A stretch of DNA of 29,845 nucleotides from a virus, in the IMG/VR virus record IMGVR_UViG_3300025732_000193, positions 1 through 29,845 of that record. One strand, written 5' to 3'. The position numbers were made by a program, and so were the translations under genes. The notes beneath the pieces are model-generated. The model did no database searches, had not been told where the DNA came from, and was given only the letters and a program-made list of their open reading frames with translations. How positions within the stretch are numbered: the first letter of the stretch is position 1; each line of letters starts with the position of its first letter. This document shows positions 8,012-29,739 of this stretch, piece after piece.

Positions 8012-8040
8012 TTGCCTTTTATTCATACTTGTTGTATACT
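8012..8040 (+). promoter_or_regulatory. Early promoter for the 57-aa gene and the VWA protein
   Basis: TTGCCT at 8012-8017 and TATACT at 8035-8040 with a 17-base spacer. The bases after the -10 box (AACGGTATGAAAATTGAAAA, 8041-8060) closely match the leader of the promoter at 17459, showing that this whole block is a reused promoter-leader cassette and that the ATG at 8047 is leader sequence near the transcription start, not a start codon. Confidence 0.8.
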
Positions 8041-8070
8041 AACGGTATGAAAATTGAAAAGGACTTTGCA

Positions 8071-8244
8071 ATGTGGGAAGAGTTCAGTGACTTTGAACTG
8101 GCTATCTTATGCCGTAAATATCAACTTGAAGATTTGCCAAAATTTGTTTTTGCGTCTAATGGGATCCCCTTTACTTTGGCAAATCGTGCAGAAGTTGAAC
8201 GTGCTTTGACTGAGCACGAAATGACTGAAGCATTTGGAGTATAA
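8071..8244 (+). CDS. Small hypothetical protein (57 aa)
   Basis: I do not recognise this acidic 57-aa protein (MWEEFSDFELAILCRKYQLE at the start). The ATG at 8071 is chosen because AAAAGGA (8057-8063) is placed well before it and because the in-frame ATG at 8047 lies where transcription should begin. It is the first gene of a two-gene unit: three bases separate its stop from the start of the large VWA-domain gene, so it may work with that protein. No membrane segment or known motif is visible. Confidence 0.65.
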   Translation: MWEEFSDFELAILCRKYQLEDLPKFVFASNGIPFTLANRAEVERALTEHEMTEAFGV

Positions 8245-8247
8245 ATA

Positions 8248-10446
8248 ATGGAAATGAAAGCAACTGATCTATCCGCAAGGCTTCTTGCAACTGAAAATCT
8301 TTCAGTGATTCGTGCAAGAACTCGCACTGCATCTTTCGACATCAAGTCACGCATTTTGACTTTGCCGATGTGGAAAGAAATGACTCCCGAGATCGAAGAT
8401 ATGCTCATCGGTCATGAAGTGGGTCATGCCCTTTACACCACCGAAGAATATATCAAACCCATCGAGGAAAATCGTAAACTCATGAGCTACATGAACATCA
8501 TCGAGGATGTTCGTATCGAGAAACTTATCAAACGCAAGTATCCAGGTCTGCGTAAACGCATGAACGATGGTTACAAGCAACTCAACGATCGTGACTTCTT
8601 TGGAGTCAAGACTGTCCAGAATTTTGACGACATTCTTTTGATTGATAAAATCAATCTATACTTCAAAGTTGGTTTCCAATGTGGTGTTAAATTCACACCA
8701 GAAGAAAAACAATTTGTCAATCGTGCCGAGCGCACTGAAACTGTGCAGGAAGTTATTCAACTTGCACAAGACATCTATGCTTATTCCAAACAACAAGCTG
8801 AAGAACGCAAAGAGCGTCTGCAAGCAGAAGGTTTGGATGATGAGGAAGATGATTTGGATCCAATCGAAAGTGATTTTGATGTTGACATGGATGGGGATTG
8901 GGATCAAGAAGAAGATGAAGATTCTGATCTGAATCCTTTCAAATCAGGTGGTTCTAATAAACAGAATGACGAGAAAGCACTTGATGAAACTGACTTGGAA
9001 TCAAAAACCGAGCGAGTGTTCCGAGACAAACTCGAAGATCTAGCCGATGAATCAACTGAATATGACTACTGGAAATTTGATACTGATTTCTTTGAATCTC
9101 CAGTGGTTGGCTACAAAACCATCTTGAAAGAAACTAAATCTACAGAGCAATGGACTGATGAAGAAAATCAAGAACATGGTAGTTGGCGTCAACGCAACTG
9201 GTCTGATGAGGAACGCGCAAACTGGTATGCTAACCAAAACAAAGATTTTGAGAACTTCAAAGTCGAGACTATGCGCACTGTAAATTATCTTGTCAAAGAA
9301 TTCGAGATGAAAAAGTCTGCACAACTTTACAAACGTGCTCAGACTTCTAAGATCGGTTCGTTGGATATGCGTAAAGTGTATGCATACAAGATCAAAGATG
9401 ACTTGTTCAAGCGAGTGACTACTCTACCACAAGGTAAGAATCATGGTATGATTATGCTTGTAGACTGGTCTGGTTCGATGAATGATGTATTGCAAGATAC
9501 CATGAAACAGGTTGTCAGTCTTGCACAATTCTGTACACGTATTCAAGTGCCTTATCGTGTGTATGCGTTTACTAGTCAATATAATGATAGAGGCTCGCGT
9601 ATAGATTATGATAGTTATATTGCAAAACAACAAAAACGCTCTGAATATATCAAAGCTAAAATTGAGCGTGGCGGAAATATTCTCCAGCTTGATGGCAGCT
9701 TCCATCTGTTGGAATTGTTCTCTGATAAAATGACTACCAGTGAATTTCAGTCAATGGCTAAACGCACAATCGACTATCGGTTCCAGTGGAACGACGGTTA
9801 CAGTACTGGTGGCACTCCGCTGAACGAAGCGATTGCATGGGTTTATCTGAATATTGGAGATTTCATTAAGAATAACAATATCGAGAAAACTACATTCATT
9901 ACGTTGACTGATGGCGAGGGTGGCTCGCTACAACCGATCACTGGTCGTTATGCTTTGGATTCAGGTCGTAGTGAAGTTGTTGATGGTATGTATAAACGTA
10001 TCAAGATGAAACACTTTATTAAAGATGAAGTTACTCAGAAAACTTACGAATTGACACGTGATGCTACTGTGCAGGCAGATGCAATTCTTAAAATGATCAA
10101 GGATCGCTATAATGTTGCAGTTGTTGGTTTTCATATCTGCCGTAATAATAAACGTGAATTGCGTGGTGTTATTGATGCTAACATTCCTAACTACAAGGGT
10201 GACAAATACGCATTGATTGAACAGTGGAGAAAAGATTTCCGTAAGGATAACTTTGCTTCTATTAAAAACACTGGTCGTGATGAACTATTCATCATTCCGC
10301 AAACTGCAACTAAGATTGTAGACGGTGAGTTGGAAGTAGATGCCGATGCAAATGCAAAGGCGATTGCAAAGAATTTCGGTAGGTTCTTAAATACAAAGAA
10401 GACTAGCCGAATCCTATTGAACCGATTTGTGTCTCTAGTTGCGTAA
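8248..10446 (+). CDS. HExxH + VWA-domain protein, NorD/CobT-like partner of a MoxR ATPase
   Basis: This 732-aa protein pairs with the AAA+ ATPase encoded next. Its N-terminal part has a zinc-protease-like HEVGH at 56-60 and, 26 residues on, IIEDVRIE (84-91) followed by KRKYPGLRKR, a combination resembling NorD/CobT-type partners of MoxR ATPases. A very acidic linker (about 197-230, Asp/Glu-rich) and a mixed middle follow. From about residue 400 there is a VWA domain with a complete MIDAS: D406-x-S408-x-S410 (VDWSGSMND), TGGTP at 520-524, and LTDGEGG. In characterised MoxR-VWA pairs the two proteins remodel or insert metal into a target enzyme; whether this one cleaves peptides is unknown. GGAG at 8236-8239 sets the start. 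It is cytoplasmic by composition. Confidence 0.85.
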   Translation: MEMKATDLSARLLATENLSVIRARTRTASFDIKSRILTLPMWKEMTPEIEDMLIGHEVGHALYTTEEYIKPIEENRKLMSYMNIIEDVRIEKLIKRKYPGLRKRMNDGYKQLNDRDFFGVKTVQNFDDILLIDKINLYFKVGFQCGVKFTPEEKQFVNRAERTETVQEVIQLAQDIYAYSKQQAEERKERLQAEGLDDEEDDLDPIESDFDVDMDGDWDQEEDEDSDLNPFKSGGSNKQNDEKALDETDLESKTERVFRDKLEDLADESTEYDYWKFDTDFFESPVVGYKTILKETKSTEQWTDEENQEHGSWRQRNWSDEERANWYANQNKDFENFKVETMRTVNYLVKEFEMKKSAQLYKRAQTSKIGSLDMRKVYAYKIKDDLFKRVTTLPQGKNHGMIMLVDWSGSMNDVLQDTMKQVVSLAQFCTRIQVPYRVYAFTSQYNDRGSRIDYDSYIAKQQKRSEYIKAKIERGGNILQLDGSFHLLELFSDKMTTSEFQSMAKRTIDYRFQWNDGYSTGGTPLNEAIAWVYLNIGDFIKNNNIEKTTFITLTDGEGGSLQPITGRYALDSGRSEVVDGMYKRIKMKHFIKDEVTQKTYELTRDATVQADAILKMIKDRYNVAVVGFHICRNNKRELRGVIDANIPNYKGDKYALIEQWRKDFRKDNFASIKNTGRDELFIIPQTATKIVDGELEVDADANAKAIAKNFGRFLNTKKTSRILLNRFVSLVA

Positions 10447-10465
10447 GTTGTTGATTTATAAAGGA

Positions 10466-10495
10466 AATAATGACCCTACTGGTGGTAGGGTTATT
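10466..10495 (+). terminator. Hairpin after the VWA gene, probable terminator
   Basis: ACCCTAC (10473-10479) pairs with GTAGGGT (10485-10491), and flanking AATAA/TTATT can lengthen the stem. The T run is short (TTATT), so termination may be partial and some read-through into the MoxR gene is possible. Confidence 0.6.
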
Positions 10496-10506
10496 GCAGA
10501 AAGTTG

Positions 10507-10535
10507 TTGACTTTTATTGCGACTTGATGTAAAAT
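10507..10535 (+). promoter_or_regulatory. Early promoter for the MoxR-type ATPase gene
   Basis: TTGACT at 10507-10512, 17-base spacer, TAAAAT at 10530-10535. The spacer (TTTATTGCGACTTGATG) is almost the same as in the promoters at 11814 and 17459, and AACGGTAT follows the -10 box as it does at 8041. Confidence 0.85.
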
Positions 10536-10572
10536 AACGGTATCGAAATTTGATTATGAATGGAGTGAAATG

Positions 10573-11739
10573 ATGGCTAAAGTTGATTCAGTGTTTCGTC
10601 GTGAGTTTGAAATCAAACTCTTTGAAATGTATCCTGATGTACAGTCCAAGGGTACTGTAAGTCGTCCACAGTTGATTGATGTTATGAAAAAACTTAAGAC
10701 TGAAAAATTCCCATTGTGGCTGATGAAAGATAAAGTCGGTCGTGGCTTGTATGCTCTCGATGGTGGCATGAATCGTGTAGCTGTTGTTGGTAATACTGTG
10801 TTGAAATCTGAACCTGTGAAAGAATCTTTTGTTGTGGATTATAATGATACTAAAGCACTGATTCCTGCGAAGGATCCTAACTTTGTTCCATTCGGTAACT
10901 ACAGTGACCTAGAGAACATTATTAAGTCTGGAATCTTTTATCCTGCATACATCTCTGGTCCAACTGGCAATGGCAAGTCCACGATGGTTGAACAGATTTG
11001 CGCCAAACATAAGAAACCACTCATTCGTGTTAACCTTAACATGATGACTGACGAAGAACAACTCATCGGCTCCAAGACTCTTCAAGACGGTAATGTAGAG
11101 ATTGTCGAAGGTCCAGTCCTTATTGCAATGCGCACTGGCGTCACGTTACTGCTTGATGAGATTGACGCTGGTGCAGCAAATACTCTGTTGTGCTTGCAAC
11201 CGATTCTCGAAGGTAAACCCTACTATTTCAAACTCAAGAACGAGATGATTGTTCCTGCAGCTGGATTCAATATCATTGCCACTGCAAACACTAAGGGTAA
11301 GGGTTCAGACGATGGTCGTTACATCGGTACCAACGTGCTGAACGAAGCATTCTTGGAACGATTCGCTGTAACATTCGAACAGGATTATCCTAACGCTAAG
11401 ATTGAAGTCAAGATTGTTCGCAATCTTATGGAGACTTTTGGTTGTTTGGATGATGAGTTTGCAGAAACTCTTGTCAAATGGGCTGACGCAATCCGTCGCA
11501 CGTTTGCTGATGGTGGTGTGGATGAAACTATTACGACTCGTCGTATGATTCATATTGTTCGTGCTTTTGCGATTTTCAAGAATCGTGTTAAGGCAGTCGA
11601 ACTCTGCTGCAATCGTTTTGACGCTGCAACTAAGGCTGCATTTATCGACCTATACGATAAGGTTGAGAATCCTCAGCCTGAACCTGCTCCCGAAGCTGCA
11701 GTGGAAAAAACTCCAGAAAGCGAGGAAGTACCCTTCTAA
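10573..11739 (+). CDS. MoxR/CobS-type AAA+ ATPase
   Basis: A 388-aa MoxR-family ATPase. The central AAA+ domain has GPTGNGKS at 129-136 (Walker A), LLLDEIDA with D195-E196 (Walker B), a sensor 1 segment NIIATANTKG and an FLERFAVTFE arginine-finger region. The first 60 residues are a separate domain ending in FPLWLMKDKVGRGLYAL; the same ending pattern is found in the 162-aa protein encoded downstream (YPNWLFNKNKVERGVYQL). The C-terminal tail is rich in Pro, Glu and Ala. The ATG at 10573 has better spacing to GGAG (10562-10565) than the one three bases earlier. CobS of cobaltochelatase is a relative, but without a CobN subunit that reaction is unlikely; it most plausibly drives the VWA protein upstream. 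Confidence 0.88.
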   Translation: MAKVDSVFRREFEIKLFEMYPDVQSKGTVSRPQLIDVMKKLKTEKFPLWLMKDKVGRGLYALDGGMNRVAVVGNTVLKSEPVKESFVVDYNDTKALIPAKDPNFVPFGNYSDLENIIKSGIFYPAYISGPTGNGKSTMVEQICAKHKKPLIRVNLNMMTDEEQLIGSKTLQDGNVEIVEGPVLIAMRTGVTLLLDEIDAGAANTLLCLQPILEGKPYYFKLKNEMIVPAAGFNIIATANTKGKGSDDGRYIGTNVLNEAFLERFAVTFEQDYPNAKIEVKIVRNLMETFGCLDDEFAETLVKWADAIRRTFADGGVDETITTRRMIHIVRAFAIFKNRVKAVELCCNRFDAATKAAFIDLYDKVENPQPEPAPEAAVEKTPESEEVPF

Positions 11740-11758
11740 AATGGAGAAATTTGGAATT

Positions 11759-11780
11759 CTGGAGAGAGAAATTTCTCCAG
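11759..11780 (+). other. Hairpin in the MoxR-162-aa intergenic region
   Basis: CTGGAGA (11759-11765) pairs perfectly with TCTCCAG (11774-11780) around an eight-base loop. No T run follows, so it is not a typical terminator; it may protect or shape the 3' end of the MoxR message. The rest of the 11740-11813 interval is A-rich with no gene I can support. Confidence 0.5.
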
Positions 11781-11813
11781 CCAAAAAAGTTGCAAAAAAG
11801 ATGAAAAAAACTG

Positions 11814-11842
11814 TTGACTTTTATTGTAACTTAGGGTATAAT
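11814..11842 (+). promoter_or_regulatory. Early promoter for the 162-aa protein gene
   Basis: TTGACT at 11814-11819, exactly 17 bases, TATAAT at 11837-11842. The spacer begins TTTATTGTAACTT, nearly the same as at 10513. Leader of about 42 bases to a good ribosome binding site (AAAGGAA, 11877-11883). Confidence 0.87.
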
Positions 11843-11890
11843 AATACCTGTGATGTTAGTTTTTGTGAAACTTTTTAAAGGAAATATATC

Positions 11891-12379
11891 ATGCTAAAAT
11901 TTGCAAACCTGTCATTGGCTCAGAAGCGTTTCGTTGTCGCTGTGATTGAGTCTAACCCTCAGTACAAAAAAGATCCTCAGATCACTCTGAAAGAATGTGC
12001 TGCAATTTATTACACCTTGCGTGATACTCGCACTGGTGCTAAGAATGAGAAGATCGGTTATCCGAACTGGCTCTTCAATAAAAACAAAGTCGAGCGTGGT
12101 GTGTATCAACTGCCTGTGCCGACTGCTACCGAACTTTCTGACTACCAGAAAGAACTTGATTCCAAGTTGAATCCAGTTGCTAAAGCTAAGGCTAAAGTTG
12201 CGAAACTTGCTAAGGCTAAGACTGTCAAAGTCAAGTCCGCTCCTGCTGCAAAAGCAGAGAAGAAACAAACTGTTCGAGATAAATCTCGTCTGCAGTCCGT
12301 TATTGATGAGTCTGTAGAAGTCGATACTGATGTCGAAGACTTCAACCAAATTTTACGAGAGAATGGTATTCAAGTTTAA
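11891..12379 (+). CDS. Basic protein sharing the N-terminal domain of the MoxR ATPase (162 aa)
   Basis: Two regions are visible. Residues 1-75 (opening LSLAQKRFVVAVIESNPQYK, closing YPNWLFNKNKVERGVYQL) align with the first 60 residues of the MoxR-type ATPase just upstream, with a longer loop; the pattern suggests a small winged-helix-like module. Residues about 95-130 are a low-complexity Ala/Lys/Val run (KAKAKVAKLAKAKTVKVKS) like histone H1 or nucleoid-protein tails, which would favour DNA or RNA binding. A short acidic end closes with DFNQILRENGIQV. I do not recognise a characterised homologue. It has its own promoter of the same type as the ATPase and VWA genes, and a strong terminator after it. 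Confidence 0.78.
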   Translation: MLKFANLSLAQKRFVVAVIESNPQYKKDPQITLKECAAIYYTLRDTRTGAKNEKIGYPNWLFNKNKVERGVYQLPVPTATELSDYQKELDSKLNPVAKAKAKVAKLAKAKTVKVKSAPAAKAEKKQTVRDKSRLQSVIDESVEVDTDVEDFNQILRENGIQV

Positions 12380-12397
12380 TACCTGACTCTTATCTGT

Positions 12398-12431
12398 CGC
12401 TGGGGTTTGCCATCGCCCCAGCGTCTTTTTT
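12398..12431 (+). terminator. Strong rho-independent terminator
   Basis: CGCTGGGG (12398-12405) pairs with CCCCAGCG (12416-12423), an eight-base GC-rich stem, followed by TCTTTTTT. It ends the accessory VWA-MoxR block. Confidence 0.92.
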
Positions 12432-12464: not shown

Positions 12465-12725
12465 ATGTCTAAACAAGCAAAACTACTTAACTACCTAACA
12501 CGTGGTAACCAAGTTACTGCTCGCCAGATCTCTGGTTCTTTTGGTTTGAGCAATCCCCACGACGCAATTTATCAGTTGCGTAATCAAGGTCATTGCATTT
12601 ATGGCAACAAAGCCAAGCTAGCCGACGGTTCAGAAACCGTAAAATATCGCATTGGTCGTCCGACCAAGCGCATGGTTGCTATCGTTAACCGTGTTGTTGG
12701 CGCACAACTCTTTACTCGTGCTTAA
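12465..12725 (+). CDS. Winged-helix DNA-binding protein (86 aa)
   Basis: An 86-aa basic protein with a helix-turn-helix-like start: QAKLLNYLTRGNQVTARQIS then GSFGLSNPHDAIYQLRNQGH, followed by a wing (CIYGNKAKLADGSETVKYRI). This is the common small winged-helix family found in many T4-like and other phages, probably a transcription or DNA-organising factor; the target is unknown. GGAG at 12451-12454 precedes the ATG by 10 bases. It lies alone between a strong terminator and a hairpin, and no promoter of the family seen elsewhere is present (only a TATAAT at 12445 without a matching -35), so it may depend on read-through. Confidence 0.78.
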   Translation: MSKQAKLLNYLTRGNQVTARQISGSFGLSNPHDAIYQLRNQGHCIYGNKAKLADGSETVKYRIGRPTKRMVAIVNRVVGAQLFTRA

Positions 12726-12737
12726 TTAGTGAGTTAC

Positions 12738-12771
12738 ATATGGACATTCGTTGAGTGTCCATATTTGATTT
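12738..12771 (+). terminator. Nine-base-pair hairpin, probable terminator
   Basis: ATATGGACA (12738-12746) pairs perfectly with TGTCCATAT (12756-12764) around a nine-base loop, followed by the T-rich TTGATTT. It sits between two convergently ordered small genes; strength as a terminator is moderate. Confidence 0.6.
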
Positions 12772-12784
12772 CATTGGAGTGATT

Positions 12785-13114
12785 ATGGCAACAAAAGACG
12801 ATGTGAAGAAATCTCAAACTGCCACAACTGGTGGTCGTAAATTTGATGGTGGTAAACTACAGTATGGTTTACTACCACCACTCGCATTAAAAGCAACCGT
12901 AGAAATTCTAACATTTGGTGCGGAGAAATACGAACCAGATAATTGGAAGCATGTTCCTGACTCAAAACGCAGATACTTTGACGCAATGCAAAGACATCTT
13001 TGGGCATGGAAAGAGGGTGAGCAAAACGATCCCGAAACTGGTAAAAACCACTTGGCACATGCAATGTGTTGCCTAATGTTCCTCTACGAACATGATGTGA
13101 AATACTCAAAATAA
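12785..13114 (+). CDS. MazG-like dATP/dGTP diphosphohydrolase-type protein (DUF5664)
   Basis: A 109-aa protein with the hallmarks of the DUF5664/dATP-dGTP diphosphohydrolase N-terminal family: RKFDGGKLQYGLLPPLAL (18-35), FGAEKYEPDNW (44-54), FDAMQRHLWAWKEGEQND (65-82) and ETGKNHLAHAMCC. Relatives of the MazG fold remove pyrophosphate from deoxynucleoside triphosphates; in some phages such enzymes clear dATP or dGTP to support altered DNA bases. No purZ-like gene is in the window, so diaminopurine synthesis is not implied. The ATG at 12785 follows GGAG (12776-12779); the protein motif begins after a Lys/Thr-rich tail. Confidence 0.85.
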   Translation: MATKDDVKKSQTATTGGRKFDGGKLQYGLLPPLALKATVEILTFGAEKYEPDNWKHVPDSKRRYFDAMQRHLWAWKEGEQNDPETGKNHLAHAMCCLMFLYEHDVKYSK

Positions 13115-17458: not shown

Positions 17459-17487
17459 TTGTCTTTAATTGCAACTTGATGTATAAT
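17459..17487 (+). promoter_or_regulatory. Early promoter for the ligase-region genes
   Basis: TTGTCT at 17459-17464, 17 bases, TATAAT at 17482-17487. The spacer and the leader (AATGGTATAGAAAGTTGAAA, 17488-17507) closely match the promoter-leader cassette at 8012-8060, including the AAAAGG ribosome binding site. It starts a run of tightly packed genes that includes the DNA ligase; no further terminator was found before about 24675. Confidence 0.87.
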
Positions 17488-17520
17488 AATGGTATAGAAA
17501 GTTGAAAAGGAACTTATATT

Positions 17521-27709: not shown

Positions 27710-29035
27710 ATGGTAAAGGTAGTTGTAGCAGATAAAAAGATTGACTGCGAACATTTAATTGGACAGTTCGTAGACGAACAACATTACGATCTTCTAATTG
27801 AAGAGGACATGGATGTATACATGCCAGAGATTCCTGGACATCCAGAACTACTACATTCTGAAGAGCGAATTGTATTGAAGTTCCGTAAGAACTTCTTTAC
27901 TAAAGAGCAACAAGATCAGGCATACATTGGACTTCGTGAAGCAGCAACTGAAACACAGAATCGTGGTGCTGCAGCTGGTCCACGTGCAGAGAAATTGGGT
28001 AATCGTGAGTGGGTGACTGAGTATGAATCAGACATTCTTGATTATTTCTTAGATCCAAAAGCAATGATTGGAGTAGATCCAATTGATGAAATCAAACGCA
28101 AACACGAAGGTAAGACTGATAAACCATCTACACGAAACAACGTGTGGGGTATCAATGCAGTTACCAAAGACAAGTTTGTGTTTGCTGATTGGGTAGAAGC
28201 AACTCGTAAGTTACCTGCAGCAGAACAGATTGCTGAAGCCAGACGAATTGAGAAACGATACGTCTGTGCCACTACATACGCCAATGGTGTGTTCTCTGGT
28301 ATTGCTGGATGGTTCGATCGTTATCCTCGACTTCCTTATGGTCGTGCGACTTCTTACACTGCACGTGAACCAGAGAAGTTTGCGATGGCTTATCCATTCC
28401 TACAGACTCTTGCTAGAGGATTTGAGAAATTGCTACCGTTGCGTTATGAGAATCAGATGCAGGCAGCACGTAAGATGGATCCTCGCTTCTTGGTTCCTGG
28501 AACACCATTCACTACGATTACAGTGAACAAAACATTCCGCACTGCTGCACACCGAGATGCTGGTGACTTAAATGCAGGATTATCCAATCTGTTGGTTCTT
28601 TCTAACAATGGTAATTACTCTGGTGGCTATTTGATTGCTCCTGAGTATCGTGTGGCAGTAAATGTAAGACCTGGAGACTTGCTTCTGATTAACAATCACG
28701 AAGTTATCCATGGCAACACACCAATCGTTTTGAATGACGAAGAAGCAGAACGTGTTTCATTGGTTTGTTATTTCCGTGAGAAGATGCTTGAACTTGGTAG
28801 CAAAGAATACGAAGATTGTCGTTATGACTATGTTGAAGAACGTAGACTCAACAAAGAACATCCAGGTCACAAGTATGAAGATGGAACAGATCGTCATTTG
28901 TGGAATGGCATCCATCCTGGGATGTGGGACTCTGAGGAATGGTATGAATACCTAGAACGAAGACTAGGTCATGATGTTCTGATGAAGTATCATCCAGAAG
29001 CAGAGAAAGCGAATTCATTGGAAGGATTCTTTTGA
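27710..29035 (+). CDS. TET/JBP-like 2-oxoglutarate dioxygenase with clamp-like C-terminal tail
   Basis: A 441-aa protein whose second half (about 265-360) is a TET/JBP-type Fe(II)/2-oxoglutarate dioxygenase: VNKTFRTAAHRDAGDLNAGL with H281-x-D283, GGYLIAPEYRVAVNVRPGD, H334 in NHEVIHGNTPI and R348 for 2-oxoglutarate. Characterised relatives hydroxylate 5-methylpyrimidines in DNA (TET, JBP1, some phage enzymes), so a base-modifying role is likely but the substrate is unknown; no DNA methyltransferase is in the window. The N-terminal 180 residues have no domain I can name. The last residues ANSLEGFF resemble the end of the phage polymerase (TSLESFFG). It follows gene 41 by 9 bases with AAGGAGAAG as ribosome binding site. 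Confidence 0.85.
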   Translation: MVKVVVADKKIDCEHLIGQFVDEQHYDLLIEEDMDVYMPEIPGHPELLHSEERIVLKFRKNFFTKEQQDQAYIGLREAATETQNRGAAAGPRAEKLGNREWVTEYESDILDYFLDPKAMIGVDPIDEIKRKHEGKTDKPSTRNNVWGINAVTKDKFVFADWVEATRKLPAAEQIAEARRIEKRYVCATTYANGVFSGIAGWFDRYPRLPYGRATSYTAREPEKFAMAYPFLQTLARGFEKLLPLRYENQMQAARKMDPRFLVPGTPFTTITVNKTFRTAAHRDAGDLNAGLSNLLVLSNNGNYSGGYLIAPEYRVAVNVRPGDLLLINNHEVIHGNTPIVLNDEEAERVSLVCYFREKMLELGSKEYEDCRYDYVEERRLNKEHPGHKYEDGTDRHLWNGIHPGMWDSEEWYEYLERRLGHDVLMKYHPEAEKANSLEGFF

Positions 29036-29739
29036 TGTGTGCAGTTATTGGTGCCATCGTGCTTGAACCCACCAAGCAGGACTTTGCTATGATTCGTAGG
29101 GTATTCCATGAGTCCAAGATTCGTGGAATGCATGCAACAGGTATCTCATTCCTACCGAACTGGTCATCTGGAATCGAAACTATCAAGGAATCAATTCCAG
29201 CAGATCAGTTTGTGGACAAGCATCTACACGATGATAATCTTGCGAGCATGATAGCTAACGATGGTAATCTTTATCTAATAGGACATTGTCGTTATTCTAC
29301 GTCTGATTTAGAGTATAACCAACCTTTATACAAGGACAATAAATCAATTGTTCACAACGGTGTTATTACTCAAGAACTTCCAGAAAACTGGAAAGACAAG
29401 TATGGTTATGATTGCATCACAAAGAATGATAGTGAGTTAGTCTTACATTCTGACGATCCATTACGAGAGTTTAGCCATATGTCAATGGGTGTAGTTGAAT
29501 TGTATGCAAACAAAACTATAAGGTTCTATCGTAATGGTAAGAGACCATTATACTTGACATCTATTCCAAATGGTAGTATAATTACTTCTACAGCGGATAT
29601 TGCTAAACGTGCTGAAGTTGGGGGATTCCCAGTTGAAGTTTTGATGAACCATTACATTACATTTGATGAGCATCTTGCAATGATGATTGAGAAAGTCCCA
29701 GTTGAAGATGCCGTTGATTACCAACATGCTGTTAGTTAA
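29035..29739 (+). CDS. Stand-alone class II glutamine amidotransferase domain
   Basis: A 234-aa N-terminal-nucleophile glutaminase. Cys2 directly after Met is the expected catalytic residue, which fixes the start at ATG 29035 (overlapping the previous stop by one base) rather than the TTG three bases before. Other marks are R30-G with HATG, GHCRYST (83-89), HNG at 107-109 and K-NDSE (130-134), the pattern of GlmS/PurF glutaminase domains. No synthase, isomerase or phosphoribosyl domain is attached, so the ammonia acceptor must be a separate protein, perhaps encoded just downstream or the product of the dioxygenase pathway. Confidence 0.88.
   Translation: MCAVIGAIVLEPTKQDFAMIRRVFHESKIRGMHATGISFLPNWSSGIETIKESIPADQFVDKHLHDDNLASMIANDGNLYLIGHCRYSTSDLEYNQPLYKDNKSIVHNGVITQELPENWKDKYGYDCITKNDSELVLHSDDPLREFSHMSMGVVELYANKTIRFYRNGKRPLYLTSIPNGSIITSTADIAKRAEVGGFPVEVLMNHYITFDEHLAMMIEKVPVEDAVDYQHAVS

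Follow-up and report, generated by a model that had tools for sequence, protein, structure and literature searches.

A MoxR ATPase and a VWA partner with a predicted zincin-like domain among phage replication genes: a possible protein-remodelling or protein-cleaving machine

The window analysed here, a 29,845-nucleotide stretch of DNA from a T4-like phage (IMG/VR record IMGVR_UViG_3300025732_000193), contains a block of three adjacent transcription units that a sequence-only reading had proposed as a phage system. Open reading frame (ORF) calls in the window sequence confirmed its genes and coordinates (Table 1), and together with alignment they bear out the proposed contents: a 57-aa protein and a 732-aa protein with an HExxH motif, an acidic linker and a VWA domain, then a MoxR ATPase, then a basic protein. 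The block indeed sits amid replication genes, between gp46, the gene of the recombination nuclease, and gp45/gp44, those of the clamp and clamp loader. Judging from its anatomy and setting, the explanation that we tentatively prefer, with somewhat less than even confidence, is that a MoxR motor belonging to the replication module and its VWA/metallopeptidase partner remodel or cleave a protein of DNA metabolism and do not act as a B12 enzyme. The pair itself is not the previously unseen system it was first taken for. Viral cobST pairs are known from cyanophages, pelagiphages and haloarchaeal tailed viruses (PMC3037559, PMC8651126, PMC7029224). The ATPase-VWA pair, its distribution and the combination of a metallopeptidase-vWA protein with MoxR have already been published: cyanophages carry cobS/cobT as core genes (PMC3037559, PMC8651126), and the combination with a metallopeptidase domain was described in group 2.2 jumbo phages (PMC7824862). 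What is new here is the paralogous basic protein, a tail on the ATPase that resembles the tip of bacterial single-strand binding (SSB) proteins, the comparison of the HExxH motif with cellular CobT, and the tests on CobN and ribonucleotide reductase (RNR).

The motor and its partner are supported as an inseparable pair. Their genes are adjacent in 66 of 67 loci, and in the 67th their order is swapped. The position between gp46 and gp45/gp44 and the order gp46-(small)-VWA-ATPase-basic-HTH-gp45-gp44 are kept in dozens of IMG/VR contigs; of 74 loci, 43 have a relative of the small ORF directly 5' of the VWA gene. In cyanophage Syn1 and pelagiphage HTVC008M, too, the pair is found between gp46 and gp45. 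In unrelated phages, which infect Rhizobium, E. coli, Pseudomonas and Stenotrophomonas, a related pair lies near DNA polymerase III alpha. Both genes occur in equal numbers of records under each name (Synechococcus 365, Cyanophage 61, Prochlorococcus 24). Ten relatives with 26-44% identity were found in bacterial genome bins; we suspect that most of these are phage contigs within the bins.

The VWA protein matches PHROG 459 near full length (E 9e-181), and a Pfam scan gave no match at E values up to 1. Structure prediction, which had been suggested as a check, showed three strands, the HEVGH helix and then the NIIED helix; the acidic linker is disordered in the model, and the VWA domain lies at the C-terminal end. 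The zinc motif that had been called protease-like is thus placed, in both alignment and model, in the strand-strand-strand/helix context that zincins require. Residues H56, E57, H60, N83, E86 and D87 are invariant in 78 of 78 distinct IMG/VR relatives, as are the residues D406, S408, S410, T523 and D555 of the metal ion-dependent adhesion site (MIDAS). When residues 1-195 were folded alone (AlphaFold2, 44 sequences), the predicted local distance difference test score (pLDDT) was 90.8, and the ten best PDB matches of this model, though weak (E from 0.14), were all zinc metallopeptidases, representing about five distinct proteins: jannalysin, abylysin, selecase, the antirestriction protein ArdC and PprI. 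The best structural likenesses are therefore to minigluzincins, ArdC and the PprI/IrrE zincins, to none of which did the domain show a sequence match. As an architecture, the zincin-like nature of the N-terminal domain is well supported by the model; metallopeptidase activity is unproven. The predicted VWA domain matches, in Foldseek, the VWA domain of NorD in its complex with NorQ. The HExxH motif is also kept in related proteins from phages of Rhizobium, E. coli, Roseobacter, Gordonia, Vibrio, Pelagibacter and Synechococcus. Membership in the DUF2201 metallopeptidase-VWA family (PF13203) was rejected: the protein has no Pfam match, and 120 genomes gave a single, sub-threshold DUF2201_N match, too little for a profile comparison. 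Separately, A732, the last residue of the protein (C-terminus at 10408-10443), is kept in 77 of 78 relatives, most of which end in -VA; the extreme C-terminus may therefore be functional.

The ATPase matches PHROG 249 near full length (E 1e-104) and the Pfam families AAA_5 and CbbQ_C, and its solved relatives include midasin, CobS, CbbQ and NorQ. Profile and structure matches thus agree with the earlier assignment to MoxR-VWA pairs of the CobS/CobT and NorQ/NorD kind. Matches to ATPases of Herelleviridae (Staphylococcus and Listeria phages) were weak, and the flanking genes that were examined there held no HExxH-VWA protein; they were set aside. The C-terminus of the ATPase is unusual. E[IV]PF ends 68 of 84 distinct full-length ATPases, behind a linker that is variable. 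Across all loci, 2254 distinct ORFs are 100 aa or longer, and 79 of them end in this way, of which 69 are ATPases by their GNGK motif; the other 10 are read as ATPase fragments, because they come from contig-edge or broken ATPase genes. Among the 274 ORFs of a near-complete relative (G125), the ATPase alone ends in [DE][IVL]P[FYW]. The tip of bacterial SSB proteins is DDDIPF (PMC5872125, PMC5928155), so that both appear to share an acidic residue, I or V, P and F at the extreme C-terminus after a variable linker, here on an ATPase. In five relatives gp32, the single-strand binding protein, has a conserved C-terminus, DVMSYFxKIAxxx, unlike the bacterial tip. We found no report of an E[IV]PF tail on an ATPase in the openly accessible literature.

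The basic protein carries the N-terminal domain of the ATPase, as had been proposed: hhalign aligned the two at probability 97.5 (E 6.9e-12), against a probability of 0.1 for an unrelated control profile. Sequence comparison thus supports a short adaptor-like domain common to the motor and the basic protein. Searched against the PDB, this domain gave scattered EF-hand and tRNA-synthetase matches and no consistent family, and these were discarded. The basic protein belongs to no family in Pfam and PHROG scans (a PHROG scan of its own family gave nothing consistent) and has no match among INPHARED phages, while IMG/VR holds many relatives. Where enough upstream sequence was available, the ATPase gene directly preceded the basic gene in 57 of 59 loci, and a VWA gene lay within 2.5 kb of it in 37 of 37. 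The expected co-occurrence of the three genes therefore stands for the adjacent pair, with the third gene co-inherited in this lineage, and fails beyond it: the basic gene is present in 48 of 58 VWA loci, missing in 10, and found in no isolated phage. The stable unit is the ATPase-VWA pair, to which this lineage has added the basic protein. The ATPases of the Rhizobium, E. coli, Pseudomonas and Stenotrophomonas phages begin with a region like a Ros/MucR-type C2H2 zinc finger and not with the PxWL...RGxY domain.

The three units do share a promoter cassette. Exact copies of the 31-bp pattern TTGMCTTTTATTNNNACTTNNNGTAWAMTAA lie at 8012, 10507 and 11814, and 100 shuffles gave none, a zero that flatters, because the pattern was taken from those very sites. 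Relatives give independent support for a shared promoter: of 79 distinct loci, 23 have its 11-bp core 5' of the ATPase gene, and the overall density of this core is 0.027 per kb. A fourth copy of TTGMCTTTTATTNNNACTTNNNGTAWAMTAA, with 2 mismatches, lies outside the block at 17459-17489. A transcript from the 8012 promoter would start close to the first ATG of the small ORF, at 8047, so that translation from this ATG would be leaderless. The T4 late-promoter consensus, TATAAATA, occurs twice in the window, at 1291-1298, directly after the major head protein gene, and at 8240. The latter abuts the start codon of the VWA gene and therefore cannot be its late promoter. Within the 100 bases upstream of any module gene in relatives, the last 8 bases excepted, there was no TATAAATA.

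With this in mind, one may outline how such a machine would work. A MoxR AAA+ motor and a VWA partner with a zincin-type domain would act in the replication and recombination programme of the phage, B12 synthesis having no part in it. Through its coupling to the VWA domain, the motor hexamer would engage a client protein, which would then be handed or exposed to the metallopeptidase domain and so cleaved or disassembled. The basic protein may serve as an accessory with the same docking domain as the motor, and in this lineage the motor may use its E-[IV]-P-F tip to dock on proteins whose normal ligand is the SSB tip of bacteria. Consistent with this are the invariant HExxH, NxxED and MIDAS residues, the predicted zincin-like and NorD-like domains, and the presence of the SSB-like tip on the ATPase and not on the phage's own gp32. 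It is conceivable, although we consider it unlikely, that the tail mimics the SSB tip of the host and directs the machine to SSB-binding host enzymes for their removal or cleavage during replication takeover; PriA, RecO, RecQ, ExoI and HolC would be examples of such targets. An attack on a host complex, as first imagined, is possible and unproven.

Several observations weigh against a replication-linked protease or remodeller. The Foldseek E-values of the N-terminal domain are weak (0.14 and up), gene neighbourhood speaks to function only indirectly, and the SSB-like tip is not found in cyanophages (Syn1), HTVC008M or E. coli-type phages. The HExxH motif is missing in Pseudomonas phage nickie and Stenotrophomonas phage BUCTxx99, and none of 15 cellular CobT proteins examined has it in the corresponding region; catalysis is therefore not essential everywhere. 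In profile comparisons this VWA family matches other phage CobT proteins (E 9e-19), and those match cellular CobT (E 1e-45). The direct comparison of this family with cellular CobT was marginal (probability 11, E 0.003), so that the connection runs through the other phage proteins. The simplest reading is a single superfamily, of which cellular CobT and some of the phage proteins are degenerate members.

Among the alternatives, the one that survives best, though we regard it as unlikely, is a role in virion assembly or maturation, in which structural proteins would be folded or processed by the MoxR-VWA-metallopeptidase machine. For the same domain combination in jumbo phages, a part in virion assembly that includes peptide processing was proposed (PMC7824862), and an analogy exists with p618/p892 of the Acidianus two-tailed virus, whose MoxR-vWA pair is cited as needed for tail development. 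The genes, however, are found among replication genes and not virion genes, and their promoters are sigma70-like and not T4-late. We favour a replication role because of this setting and these non-late promoters, with which virion assembly is still compatible.

Somewhat less probable is a maturation chaperone of the NorQ/NorD type, acting on a metallocofactor or complex such as the class I RNR of the phage, with the HExxH motif serving metal handling and not proteolysis. That the closest solved relatives are NorQ/NorD, CbbQ and CobS, that class I RNR is encoded in 8 of 11 phage records carrying the pair, and that HExxH is dispensable in some lineages all agree with such a role. In the loci read, however, no RNR gene lies beside the pair, and ICP2 has the pair and no RNR match. 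NorQ/NorD and CbbQ/CbbO are alike in their MoxR-VWA coupling, the VWA fold resembling NorD and the ATPase resembling NorQ and CbbQ, and differ from the block in the window, which has the zincin-like N-terminal domain and the replication setting.

About as improbable is the account in general use, that viral CobS and CobT join, or hijack, the CobN of the host and so raise the supply of B12 for nucleotide synthesis (PMC8651126). The ATPase is CobS-like, phage VWA proteins related to the one here are clearly homologous to CobT, and a cyanobacterial control genome has CobN. Yet none of the 11 phage records has CobN, and a related pair occurs in a phage whose recorded host is E. coli K-12 MG1655, while no CobN-family protein is found in the control genome of E. 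coli. Class I RNR, present in most of these records as noted above, is independent of B12. Against the CobS profile TIGR01650 the ATPase scores 92.7 bits (E 2e-26), far below the curated cut-off of 558.55, the VWA protein matches the CobT profile PF06213 neither in a search of the window record nor in the Pfam scan, and cellular CobT lacks HExxH. The CobN, E. coli-phage and RNR results weigh against cobalt chelation as a general account, and for cyanophages, the control host having CobN, it is possible. As a separate observation, the control genome of Caulobacter vibrioides matches the CobT profile PF06213 and not the CobN profile PF02514; therefore cellular CobT, too, may exist without CobN.

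Compared with the known systems, the block falls within the viral cobST class, both PHROG profiles (249 and 459) matching near full length in adjacent genes. It is homologous to those pairs and has the same gene order, but its VWA protein is only about 31-35% identical to theirs, and the basic gene and SSB-like tip were not found there. It also fits, by its modelled domains, the class of MoxR ATPases beside a vWA protein with an N-terminal metallopeptidase-like domain. By its description, the jumbo-phage pair (ASV44728/ASV44729; PMC7824862) has the same adjoining genes in T4-related phages; set against that description, the block here differs in the basic gene with the ATPase N-terminal domain, the SSB-like tip and the location in a replication block. 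Cellular CobS/CobT likewise combine a MoxR ATPase with a VWA protein bearing an acidic linker, the homology running through other phage CobT proteins. They differ in that HExxH is replaced in cellular CobT, and in that the window proteins fall under the curated CobS/CobT cut-offs and have no CobN partner.

Table 1. Features of the block and its immediate neighbour, in positions of the window
Feature	Positions	Strand	Remarks
Promoter cassette copy 1, sigma70-like, TTGCCT-17-TATACT	8012..8042	+	exact pattern match and promoter scan
Small ORF, 57 aa	8071..8244	+	second ATG, preceded by AAAGGA
VWA protein, 732 aa, viral 'CobT', PHROG 459 'peptidase'	8248..10446	+	
Zincin-like N-terminal domain of VWA protein, residues 1-195	8248..8832	+	predicted structure and PDB matches
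HEVGH, residues 56-60 of VWA protein	8413..8427	+	invariance among relatives
NIIED, residues 83-87 of VWA protein	8494..8508	+	E86 a candidate third metal ligand
Acidic linker, residues 197-247 of VWA protein	8836..8988	+	modelled as disordered, pLDDT <50
VWA domain, residues 399-684; MIDAS D406-S408-S410, T523, D555	9442..10299	+	
Promoter cassette copy 2	10507..10537	+	exact pattern match
MoxR AAA+ ATPase, 389 aa, viral 'CobS', PHROG 249	10570..11739	+	
N-terminal domain of ATPase (PxWL...KVxRGxYxL)	10570..10794	+	common to the basic protein by hhalign
Walker A of ATPase, GPTGNGKS	10957..10980	+	G and K invariant in alignment
C-terminal tip of ATPase, SEEVPF	11719..11736	+	resembles bacterial SSB tip DDDIPF
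Promoter cassette copy 3	11814..11844	+	exact pattern match
Basic protein, 162 aa	11891..12379	+	ATPase-type N-terminal domain, Lys/Ala-rich middle
Winged-helix protein, 86 aa, HTH_39	12465..12725	+	syntenic neighbour; membership in the system uncertain

Elsewhere in the window, a gene resembling MazG/dATP-dGTP pyrophosphohydrolase (phrog_801, 12755-13114) lies directly before gp45. A 441-aa protein (phrog_24024, 27710-29035), with a weak match to queuine tRNA-ribosyltransferase (E 5e-8), is encoded 3' of the replicative helicase and is directly followed by a glutamine amidotransferase (phrog_4736, 29032-29739); these two are possibly a 7-deazaguanine DNA-modification pair.

T4-like phages that are very abundant in the sea and in fresh water have the ATPase-VWA pair as part of their core genome, and as a rule it is listed among auxiliary metabolic genes for B12. 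If it is instead a replication-associated machine for remodelling or proteolysis, a widely used ecological annotation would be wrong and a conserved phage enzyme would have been overlooked. The intact HExxH motif, not found in cellular CobT, and the SSB-like tail offer concrete targets for point mutation, and phage PhiR41_1 of E. coli K-12, whose related pair has HExxH intact, provides a convenient laboratory system.

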